Part shown: positions 1,812 through 3,063 of the stretch, piece by piece
How positions within the stretch are numbered: the stretch's first letter is position 1
Layout: the number at the start of each line of letters is the position of its first letter
NCBI GenBank assembly: GCA_001785175.1
Contig: MFSY01000112.1
Location: 1-18,404 of the forward strand
DNA length: 18,404 nt
Reading direction: 5' to 3'
DNA from: Candidatus Muproteobacteria bacterium RIFCSPHIGHO2_01_FULL_65_16
GTDB lineage: Bacteria > Pseudomonadota > Gammaproteobacteria > Acidiferrobacterales > Sulfurifustaceae
Notes under the pieces: model-generated
Told to the model about the DNA's origin: nothing
What the model saw: only the letters and a program-made list of their open reading frames with translations
The model's database searches: none
Made by a program: the position numbers and the translations under genes

Positions 1812-1876
1812 TCTGTGGAAAACTTGGTGCCCGGGGCCGGACTCGAACCGGCACGGTGTCGCCACCAAGGGATTTT

Positions 1877-2588
1877 CATACCAGCCACAGCTTTCGCTGC
1901 TGCGTTCTGACTTAAAACGCATTTGTGGTCTGGACTTTACCTTTACCATAGCCTAAATTGCAGGCCGTAGGTAGGAGCCGTCAAGTCTCTACACTTTCCT
2001 TGGCGCTGGAGTCCTTAAGGGGCGCAACATGAGACTACGGAAGTATTCTGATAAACAGCTCCGGGAGGCGGTGAAAAATGCCGCTTCCATGAGACAGGTT
2101 TTACAGATACTTAACGTTGCTCCTTACGGTGGCAATTACGATGTGCTGAGAAAAGCAATCCGGCATTTTAATCTCGACACGTCGCATTTTGTTGGTCAGG
2201 CATGGAACAAGGGCAAGATACTTCCTCCGAAACAGCCGATCGAGAAATATCTTAGCAACTCCCTGCCCCTTCAGTCTCATAAGCTCAGAACCAGACTTTT
2301 ACGAGAGGGCATCCTTGAGCCTCGCTGCGCCAGTTGCCAGAATACGCGATGGCTTAATCAGCCCATCCCTCTAGAGCTTGACCACATCAACGGGAACAAC
2401 AAGGACAACAGGCTGAAAAACCTGCGTCTTATGTGCCCTAATTGCCACGCACAGACTCCAACATACCGCTCTAAAAAGCGGTCCAAGACTTAGCTCGGGG
2501 TTGCCACCGCCGTGATATGCGCTGAGGTTTCCCCGAATTTGACTCCATTCACGCCAGGGGTTTCCCGCCTGGGTGCTCAAAATTGTTT
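1877..2588 (-). ncRNA. Group I self-splicing intron in tRNA-Leu(UAA)
   Basis: A 712-nt intron, resembling the cyanobacterial tRNA-Leu group I introns. Core elements that pair by eye: P1, exon CUU with intron GAG, giving U-G at the splice site; P3, GGAGUC (2541-2546) with GGCUCC (1974-1979); P4, UUCGGGG (2531-2537) with CCCCGAG (2494-2500); P7, GACUU (1983-1987) with AAGUC (1933-1937); P8, UACC/GGUA with GCCU/AGGC inside; P9, UGCGUU with AACGCA, followed by a CAGC-GAAA-GCUG hairpin. The terminal guanosine is at 1877. The element P is at 2522-2542, Q at 2489-2505, R at 1978-1994 and S at 1932-1943. The P6 extension pairs CUUGG with CCAAG and UUGGAGUC with GACUCCAG, and holds the endonuclease ORF in its distal loop. 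Confidence 0.93.
2029..2493 (+). CDS. Intron-encoded HNH endonuclease, antisense to its host intron
   Basis: A 154-aa protein. Residues 1-55 form a small helical domain with a basic start (MRLRKYSDKQLREAV) and the block APYGGNYD, probably DNA-binding. A short WNKGK linker lies at 59-63. Residues 95-145 form a zinc-type HNH nuclease: C100-x2-C103, LELDHINGNNKDN at 115-127 with the catalytic D118-H119 and Asn, then C136-x2-C139-H140. AAGGGG (2017-2022) sits 6 nt before the ATG, so a ribosome-binding site exists on this strand. GC content is visibly lower than in neighbouring genes, as expected for a mobile gene. It lies on the strand opposite the tRNA and intron, in the loop of the P6 extension. 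Its TAG (2491-2493) directly abuts the P4 3' strand. Homing activity at intronless leuZ is inferred, not shown. Confidence 0.88.
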   Translation: MRLRKYSDKQLREAVKNAASMRQVLQILNVAPYGGNYDVLRKAIRHFNLDTSHFVGQAWNKGKILPPKQPIEKYLSNSLPLQSHKLRTRLLREGILEPRCASCQNTRWLNQPIPLELDHINGNNKDNRLKNLRLMCPNCHAQTPTYRSKKRSKT

Positions 2589-2640
2589 AAGTCCCTTGCG
2601 TCTACCAGTTTCGCCACCCGGGCATCGGGAAGGCTTGGCG

Positions 2641-2671
2641 ATTATATAGGCGAATCCGAAGTTTTGAGCAA
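2641..2671 (-). promoter_or_regulatory. Candidate promoter for tRNA-Leu
   Basis: On the minus strand a consensus TATAAT (2641-2646) ends 17 nt before the mature tRNA-Leu 5' end. A weaker TTGCTC (2666-2671) lies 19 bp upstream of it. The element could let tRNA-Leu be transcribed independently of tRNA-Gly, which matters because a terminator-like hairpin and an inserted repeat lie between them. The -35 match and spacing are poor. Confidence 0.45.
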
Positions 2672-2673
2672 AG

Positions 2674-2844
2674 TTAGCAGTTTGTTGAAAAACTCGTTTT
2701 TCAACAAACTGCGGTGCGGCACAGGGACGTGCCGCCATTTATCAAACACGTTAAGTGTTTGATAAATGAAGCAAAGCAAAAACCACGCTTTTTGCTTTGC
2801 GTGTTGAAAAAGACCACGGAAGGACTTTTTCAACAAACTGTTAG
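2674..2844. repeat. MITE-like element: 15-bp terminal inverted repeats, TTAG duplication, five stem-loops
   Basis: The element proper is 2678-2840 (163 bp). Its ends are perfect inverted copies: CAGTTTGTTGAAAAA (2678-2692) and TTTTTCAACAAACTG (2826-2840). TTAG flanks both sides (2674-2677 and 2841-2844), consistent with a target-site duplication. Inside are consecutive perfect hairpins: 15 bp at 2678-2711 with loop CTCG; 7 bp at 2716-2735; 13 bp at 2737-2767 with loop GTTAA; 12 bp at 2771-2800; and 11 bp at 2802-2835. There is no ORF. I read it as a small non-autonomous mobile element or REP-like cluster inserted between tRNA-Cys and tRNA-Leu. Its transposase source is unknown. Confidence 0.7.
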
Positions 2845-2854
2845 TGAAGGGAAA

Positions 2855-2928
2855 TGGAGGCTGGGGTCGGAATCGAACCGGCGTACACGGCTTTGCAGGC
2901 CGCTGCATGACCACTCTGCCACCCAGCC
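2855..2928 (-). tRNA. cysT: tRNA-Cys(GCA)
   Basis: 74 nt including the encoded CCA (2855-2857). The acceptor stem pairs GGCTGGG with CCCAGCC. The anticodon arm is CGGC-CTGCAAA-GCCG with anticodon GCA, and the T arm carries GGTTCGATTCC. The discriminator is U73, the known identity base of bacterial tRNA-Cys. It is the middle gene of the Gly-Cys-Leu block. No promoter is visible in the 25 bp between the terminator-like hairpin and its 5' end, so it probably depends on readthrough from tRNA-Gly. Confidence 0.97.
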
Positions 2929-2987: not shown

Positions 2988-3063
2988 TGGAGCGGGAAAG
3001 GAGGCTCGAACTCCCGACCTTAACCTTGGCAAGGTTACGCTCTACCAACTGAGCTATTCCCGC
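2988..3063 (-). tRNA. glyW: tRNA-Gly(GCC)
   Basis: 76 nt including the encoded CCA (2988-2990). The acceptor stem pairs GCGGGAA with TTCCCGC, the D arm is GCTCAGTTGGTAGAGC, the anticodon arm is AACCT-TGCCAAG-GTT with anticodon GCC, and the T arm is GGGAGTTCGAGCCTCC. U73 is present, as is usual for bacterial tRNA-Gly. It is the first tRNA of the operon and lies just downstream of pgsA, as in E. coli. It has its own strong promoter at 3077-3104. Confidence 0.97.

Follow-up and report, generated by a model that had tools for sequence, protein, structure and literature searches.

A group I intron in a bacterial tRNA-Leu(UAA) gene and its antisense HNH gene: a likely composite mobile element with phage relatives

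The window analysed here, an 18,404-nt contig (MFSY01000112.1) of Candidatus Muproteobacteria bacterium RIFCSPHIGHO2_01_FULL_65_16, carries a tRNA-Leu(UAA) gene interrupted by a 712-nt group I intron, and within this intron an intact HNH gene lies on the opposite strand. The two probably make up a composite mobile element, consisting of a tRNA-Leu(UAA) group I intron and a captured antisense HNH homing endonuclease gene. In our best reading, which is drawn from sequence comparison, the gene would derive from a phage homing endonuclease directed at the tRNA(UAA) anticodon and captured by an intron of the same site, and the family would provide a natural series for 'collaborative homing'.

The interrupted tRNA-Leu gene and the HNH gene inside it

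The features of the locus, with the basis of each, are as follows.

1825-1876, minus strand: tRNA-Leu(UAA) 3′ exon (AAAATCCC...ACCA); sequence, ARAGORN
1877-2588, minus strand: 712-nt group I intron (IC3-like), its last base the G at 1877; sequence, ARAGORN, RF00028, alignment
1933-1937, minus strand: P7 3′ strand (AAGUC); 26-intron alignment
1974-1979, minus strand: P3 3′ strand (GGCUCC); 26-intron alignment
1983-1987, minus strand: P7 5′ strand (GACUU); 26-intron alignment
1997-2003, minus strand: P6 3′ strand; sequence, alignment
2017-2022, plus strand: Shine-Dalgarno-like AAGGGG for the HNH gene, inside the P6 extension; sequence
2029-2493, plus strand: antisense HNH endonuclease gene, 154 aa; ORF, PHROG profile, alignment
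2483-2489, minus strand: P6 5′ strand, the other strand coding for the HNH C-terminus; sequence, alignment
2491-2493, plus strand: HNH stop TAG, reverse complement of the intron-core CUA (GAGCUAAG); sequence
2541-2546, minus strand: P3 5′ strand (GGAGUC); 26-intron alignment
2589-2623, minus strand: tRNA-Leu(UAA) 5′ exon, ending ...CUU (U34); ARAGORN with introns allowed
2855-2928, minus strand: tRNA-Cys(GCA), upstream member of the Gly-Cys-Leu cluster; tRNA scan
2988-3063, minus strand: tRNA-Gly(GCC), Gly-Cys-Leu cluster; tRNA scan

ARAGORN with introns allowed placed tRNA-Leu(taa) at c1825-2623 with a 712-nt intron after position 35. In the sequence the 5′ exon ends ...ACTT, the intron runs from 2588 to 1877 with a final G, and the 3′ exon is AAAATCCC. 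The intron splits the gene between U34 and A35 on the minus strand; both the U preceding the 5′ splice site (2589) and the G as last intron base (1877) are present. The initial annotation had put a 712-nt intron after U34 at 1877-2588, and these coordinates proved exact. Default ARAGORN and Rfam at gathering both missed the intron. The tRNA-Leu gene is the third in a Gly-Cys-Leu tRNA cluster, upstream of which lie two genes that we take to be pgsA and uvrC (names assigned from the translations). The stretch from tRNA-Leu to tRNA-Cys (window 2642-2855) is repeat-rich: by eye, a TTTTTCAACAAACTG-like motif recurs in it several times, in both direct and inverted orientation.

The assignment to group I, likewise proposed at the outset, stood on pairing but not on the score of the Rfam model. 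RF00028 gave 19.6 bits against a cut-off of 50 (E 0.02, anchored on the 5′ half) and did not reach gathering, because a 465-bp opposite-strand ORF fills and interrupts P6; the cut-off was passed by 5 of the 14 intron-bearing relative loci given (L011, L014, L043, L045 and L047). A sequence alignment was made of 26 tRNA-Leu introns, 16 of them ORF-bearing (with the ORF cut out) and 10 ORF-less. In the 16 ORF-bearing introns, paired cells amounted to 96/96 for P3, 95/96 for P4 and 80/80 for P7, with looser helices at P2 (77/96) and P6 (59/80). Compensatory changes occur over all 26 introns, for example from GGAGUC/GGCUCC to GGUGUC/GGCACC.

Other group I introns were noticed along the way. The window's own genome has a second match (L100, G000:C110:1623-1867, minus strand, 67.8 bits), of which the tRNA call (Gln, CUG) is doubtful and the neighbouring stretches read N. 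A CAU-anticodon tRNA holds a group I intron of 650-657 nt in two other genomes (L096:606-1339 in G013 and L097 c1117-1843 in G016; RF00028 45-47 bits). The L096 intron has an ORF on its sense strand, the product of which presumably resembles a PD-(D/E)XK enzyme.

The P6 loop of the window intron holds a complete gene on the opposite strand (2029-2493, 154 aa, intact), and the ribosome-binding site ascribed to it is also borne out: the ORF starts with ATG and has an SD-like AAGGGG at -12. The closest family of the protein is PHROG 10822 (phrog_10822, E 1.3e-50), and Pfam HNH_3 matched just under its cut-off (23.2 vs 24.8 bits). Residues C100, C103, D118, H119, C136, C139 and H140 are invariant, and N131 nearly so, in an alignment (A1) of 20 rows, 18 of them distinct; two of these rows, L071 and L072, repeat the proteins of L037 and L039, and neither they nor L003, which is the same contig as L032, were counted twice. 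We take these conserved residues to be the catalytic and zinc residues. In the predicted fold the N-terminal domain is helical, with helices at 8-17, 21-27 and 34-46, and the HNH domain, which contains two CxxC pairs, is C-terminal; structure and solved-structure searches with the protein returned weak matches only. Of ten pairs compared, five had a measurable dS and gave omega values of 0.06-0.14, the other five being saturated; where measurable, these ratios indicate that the gene is under purifying selection. Being antisense, it would have to be transcribed independently. A promoter scan for the antisense gene found none; its one hit lay on the minus strand at 1570-1597, and shuffles give 0.9.

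The gene ends in the ribozyme core. Its TAG stop is the reverse complement of the core CUA (GAGCUAAG) in all 14 open bacterial antisense copies examined, a count that includes L032 despite its lack of an ATG, and L036, in which the automatic test matched the motif at an earlier place while the coincidence is plain from the sequence itself. The last HNH codons overlap the P6 5′ strand in the antisense copies, and 11-33 nt separate the start from the conserved segment on the far side of P6. All 19 introns that hold an antisense HNH gene (15 open, 4 broken) have CUA in the core. Phage introns with the HNH gene beside them (16 of 18 examined) have CCA or CGA, never CUA (0/16), and the one intron with a sense HNH gene (L178) has CCA. 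Among bacterial introns, CUA is present in 10 of 11 with no HNH found nearby and in 2 of 4 with the gene beside. Since ORF-less bacterial introns also have CUA, the base could predate the gene; in these introns it may be what is left of a lost gene, or it may have come first. Stop-codon sharing was rejected for the viral antisense copy L109, which has CUA but in which the HNH frame continues past the core.

Relatives of the HNH gene in bacteria and phages

A scan of 84,980 species genomes yielded 22 HNH relatives, 17 of them close (60-90% identity); a plasmid search gave no match. All 17 close genomic relatives are located at tRNA-Leu(UAA) introns, 13 inside and antisense and 4 beside. The antisense layout, once regarded as the most unusual system in the window, is not unique to it: it is also present in these 13 relatives, most of which have Gammaproteobacteria in the title of their record, and in L109, a viral contig. 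Two of the 13 inside copies have broken frames (L041 and L046). The four genes beside the intron (L043, L045, L047 and L048) lie just 3′ of a tRNA-Leu with a 227-241-nt intron, on the opposite strand. L052, one of the five less close relatives, is a broken copy inside an intron, and L053 has a broken frame 5 nt from an intronless tRNA-Leu(UAA); L049-L051 are distant HNH relatives, and L074 is also a broken copy. One element (L034) was found in a record titled Klebsiella pneumoniae; this is a metagenome bin, so the label may be wrong.

The element is patchily distributed. Within the class sample, HNH matches were obtained in 11 of 369 genomes: an intact gene inside the intron in five (the window's own, G149, G181, G234 and G319), a broken one inside the intron in G296, and four further matches that are weak and have no tRNA in the locus. 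The eleventh, G299 (L075 1367-1599), keeps a fossil of the element, a C-terminal HNH fragment that lies antisense about 50 nt 3′ of an intronless tRNA-Leu(UAA). The element is present in 2 of 57 genomes of the order and in 1 of 398 in the phylum sample, namely the window's own. Among 96 genomes searched, with only the returned loci counted, a tRNA-Leu intron occurs in at least 13 (own included), two of which also have the HNH gene; introns are commoner than the gene, and the earlier view that tRNA-Leu introns are rare does not apply to this neighbourhood. One of these loci (L010) has a possible, weak trace of the HNH C-terminus. In G005 (L013 1501-1832) an intronless tRNA-Leu has a different anticodon stem, and about 130 nt past it lie a headless intron 3′ half and its 3′ exon, an arrangement that resembles a replaced allele.

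Viral relatives, viral status being the collection's label, were read for the best 80 of 219 loci. A tRNA gene lay within 100 nt in 76 of these 80; 53 HNH genes stood beside an intronless tRNA(UAA), 20 were at loci with an intron and 7 were elsewhere, so that the neighbour was a UAA tRNA or its intron in 73. At the 20 intron-bearing loci the gene was beside the intron in 18 (two at a contig end), inside and antisense in one (L109) and inside and sense in one (L178). The loci are partly redundant, and thinning left 56, of which 49 have the gene beside, 2 inside and 5 in other arrangements. The anticodon loop reads CTTAAAA in 51 of the 53 intronless neighbours, across 24 kinds of stem and with 30 of 53 bodies short; the TAA follows from the way the loci were chosen, and the informative positions are 32, 33, 37 and 38. 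The short-bodied UAA tRNAs beside HNH genes (73-77 nt; L107, L116, L121, L123 and others) are unlike the long-armed leucine tRNAs.

ARAGORN calls viral intron-bearing loci Tyr(ata) or Ser(aga) with 187-200-nt introns. We read them as tRNA-Leu(UAA) with a group I intron, because 9 of the 12 loci submitted to RF00028 score 56-69 bits and the loci also match a profile made from known introns, with E values as low as 6.7e-52; eight of the phage introns themselves went into that profile. Named phages hold more distant relatives, for which regions were fetched from 13 of the 194 records that matched. A tRNA lay within 250 nt in 11 of the 13, one had none and one had it at 1,106 nt, and the neighbours also include Glu, Gly, Gln, Arg and Leu-UAG tRNAs. 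Against random positions, 10 of the 12 regions that have a tRNA had it nearer than 96% of the random positions; the same control on the first set of small viral loci found most not nearer to a tRNA than random.

Mobility, trees and descent

Seven pairs of phage loci were compared, four profiled and three measured, the pairs having been picked after seeing the tree. L105 and L107, which have different tRNA genes, share a 538-bp cassette from the tRNA 3′ end through the HNH gene; it is 97.4% identical, whereas identity is 72.9% on its upstream side and 71.1% on its downstream side. L164 and L145 represent an occupied/empty pair that differs by a 196-nt intron with homology on both its sides; identity is 92.4% on the HNH side vs 69-73% in the flanks (72.5% on the 5′ exon side). 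The corresponding values for L175/L177 are 91.6% vs 70%, and the tract in L152/L145 is less clear than in the other pairs. Such transfer tracts indicate mobility at the putative target in the phage relatives.

The homing role proposed for the HNH gene is supported by this comparative evidence. The group I intron would splice itself out of tRNA-Leu(UAA), having captured the HNH gene antisense in its P6 loop; the close phage kin are mostly free-standing genes beside tRNAs with a CTTAAAA loop. The enzyme would cut intronless tRNA(UAA) genes at or near this loop, where the intron also has its insertion site (CTT^AAAA), and repair from an intron-bearing copy would install intron and gene together. 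The intron would shield the host's own tRNA gene from cutting and recutting. An antisense promoter would serve the gene, and the ribozyme core provides its stop codon. The intron, the antisense gene with its shared stop, the link to tRNA(UAA), the transfer tracts of the phages and the purifying selection are read from the sequences; splicing, cutting, expression and homing are the steps that we infer.

HNH trees were built without L041 and L046 (broken frames), and 24 near-identical rows were thinned before the 74-row tree. The bacterial HNHs form one clade in it (99/96), nested among phage HNHs, with L109 and L178 outside. The intron tree also contains a bacterial clade (98/98), with L109 and L178 outside and together (89/80); elsewhere it is weak, the bootstrap not having settled and row L168 being shortened. 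The antisense insertions of L109 and of the bacteria stand apart in both trees, but may still share one common origin. On the HNH tree, 14 changes were required for the state 'beside the intron', and 192 of 500 label shuffles were as low; with no fewer changes than under shuffled labels, intron and HNH gene appear to come apart often.

The four bacterial copies beside the intron are nested among the inside copies, and a single clade of them was rejected (AU p 0.0035), which favours at least two exits from the intron. In a remnant test past the HNH start, as high a match arose in 0 of 500 shuffles for L048, 34 for L043, 103 for L047 and 464 for L045, only L048 being significant. The sequence preceding the L048 gene matches its own intron's P6 and beyond; L043 has a shorter piece. 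In the interval between tRNA and HNH gene none of the four was significant (108 of 500 for L043, 283 for L047, 382 for L045 and 385 for L048). An nhmmer search for intron remnants hit L043 only, in two pieces (E 0.002 and 0.021), with none in L048, L045, L047 or L075 and no 5′ half anywhere. Exit from the intron therefore rests on the trees and two partial remnants; the gene is probably outside the intron again in these bacteria.

The window and G013, a genome of the same family and another genus, were compared gene by gene, leaving aside the first gene of the window, which had no hit, and a cheB-like gene (39% over 100 codons). The dS of the HNH gene was 0.71, inside the range of the 11 flanking genes (0.60-1.04), so this copy seems to have been inherited and retained, not inserted recently; recent homing was not seen between the window and G013. 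Its dN of 0.049 was the lowest of the 12 genes (the rest 0.084-0.394). The G013 copy (L032) has lost its ATG start and has a GTG 12 nt upstream.

Retention under vertical descent is unexpected for a purely selfish fixed gene, and within-population homing or a host benefit could account for it. That the cell keeps the HNH for its own benefit, for example to cut the intronless tRNA(UAA) of incoming phages while the intron protects the host gene, or to aid splicing, seems to us rather unlikely. The lowest dN of the 12 genes at an ordinary dS would suit such a function, as would the putative target adjoining related HNHs on viral contigs; the patchy presence (intact in 5/369 of the class, 2/57 of the order) and the broken copies L041, L046, L052 and L074 fit a selfish cycle better. 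These same broken copies, the missing ATG of L032 and the equal dS in window and G013, which argues for vertical descent, are also what inactive, vertically inherited remnants would leave. Yet low omega in every pair where it could be measured, intact HNH-motif residues and the pairing of P3, P4 and P7 make a decaying passenger very improbable.

It is likewise unlikely that intron and gene are chance neighbours, the HNH targeting another part of tRNA clusters and having entered the intron by accident. The other tRNAs adjoined by the more distant relatives point that way; against it, 73 of the best 80 viral loci are at a UAA tRNA or its intron, and stems and bodies vary while the loop is nearly constant. 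We retain the composite mobile element, against which count the vertical descent of window and G013, the lost or broken frames, the promoter scan that found none, the 7 of 80 viral loci elsewhere, the other kinds of tRNA beside more distant phage relatives, the partial redundancy of the viral loci and the CUA of ORF-less bacterial introns.

Known systems and the meaning of the element

The cyanobacterial tRNA-Leu(UAA) and Azoarcus tRNA-Ile genes contain ORF-less IC3 introns, which share the anticodon-loop insertion and the core layout with the window intron and have no endonuclease gene. Another bacterial parallel is the tRNA-fMet intron of Synechocystis, the endonuclease of which we take to be I-Ssp6803I. 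According to the part of the source used here, this too is a group I intron that interrupts a bacterial tRNA gene and carries the gene of an endonuclease, but the enzyme is of the PD-(D/E)XK type and encoded in P1, unlike the antisense HNH gene in P6 of the window (PMC3073962). Interrupted tRNA-Leu genes are described in Thiomargarita and a Beggiatoa, and the part of that paper used here does not mention an endonuclease (PMC4853749). A review of bacterial introns covers tRNA introns (PMC3984707); the terms 'antisense', 'opposite strand' and 'HNH' are absent from its main text, which writes H-N-H.

Antisense homing genes are already known in eukaryotic rDNA introns. In excerpts of the relevant papers, the His-Cys genes of I-DirII and I-DsqI in nuclear rDNA introns lie opposite the ribozyme strand, as here, and P6 is among the listed sites of nuclear homing genes; unlike here, the setting is eukaryotic rDNA, the enzyme family is another and expression is by pol II (PMC9548176, PMC3679873, PMC3073962). 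Searches of the open-licence literature, which does not cover subscription papers, found no bacterial antisense or tRNA-Leu homing gene. T4 SegB, a homing endonuclease of the GIY-YIG type from the tRNA region, resembles the phage HNHs as a free-standing homing gene in a phage tRNA cluster, but as far as the excerpt goes it belongs to another enzyme family and has an intergenic target and no intron (PMC2988022). The closest model in the portions of the literature used is collaborative homing in phages, in which a free-standing endonuclease and an ORF-less intron share one target and are later joined (PMC3984707, PMC2988022). Unlike in those cases, the target here would be a tRNA anticodon, and the free, beside and captured arrangements occur within one family, in phages and bacteria.

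Read most simply, the trees would have at least three captures of a phage anticodon-loop HNH by a tRNA(UAA) intron (antisense in P6 in bacteria, antisense in P6 in a phage, and sense before P3-P4 in a phage) and at least two bacterial exits; the bacterial form would be a guarded weapon, the intron hiding the host tRNA-Leu and the HNH cutting the intronless tRNA(UAA) of incoming phages. We give this account as a whole an outside chance; if true, it would explain the strong purifying selection despite vertical descent. The long-standing question of how self-splicing introns come to be joined with free homing endonuclease genes has so far drawn on a handful of phage cases. One family here presents the states next to each other: free beside an intronless tRNA, free beside an intron, inside it in either orientation, decayed inside and probably out again, and in the bacterial antisense form a base of the ribozyme core doubles as part of a protein's stop codon. 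The states share one short putative target, so the model could be tested with small synthetic DNAs.
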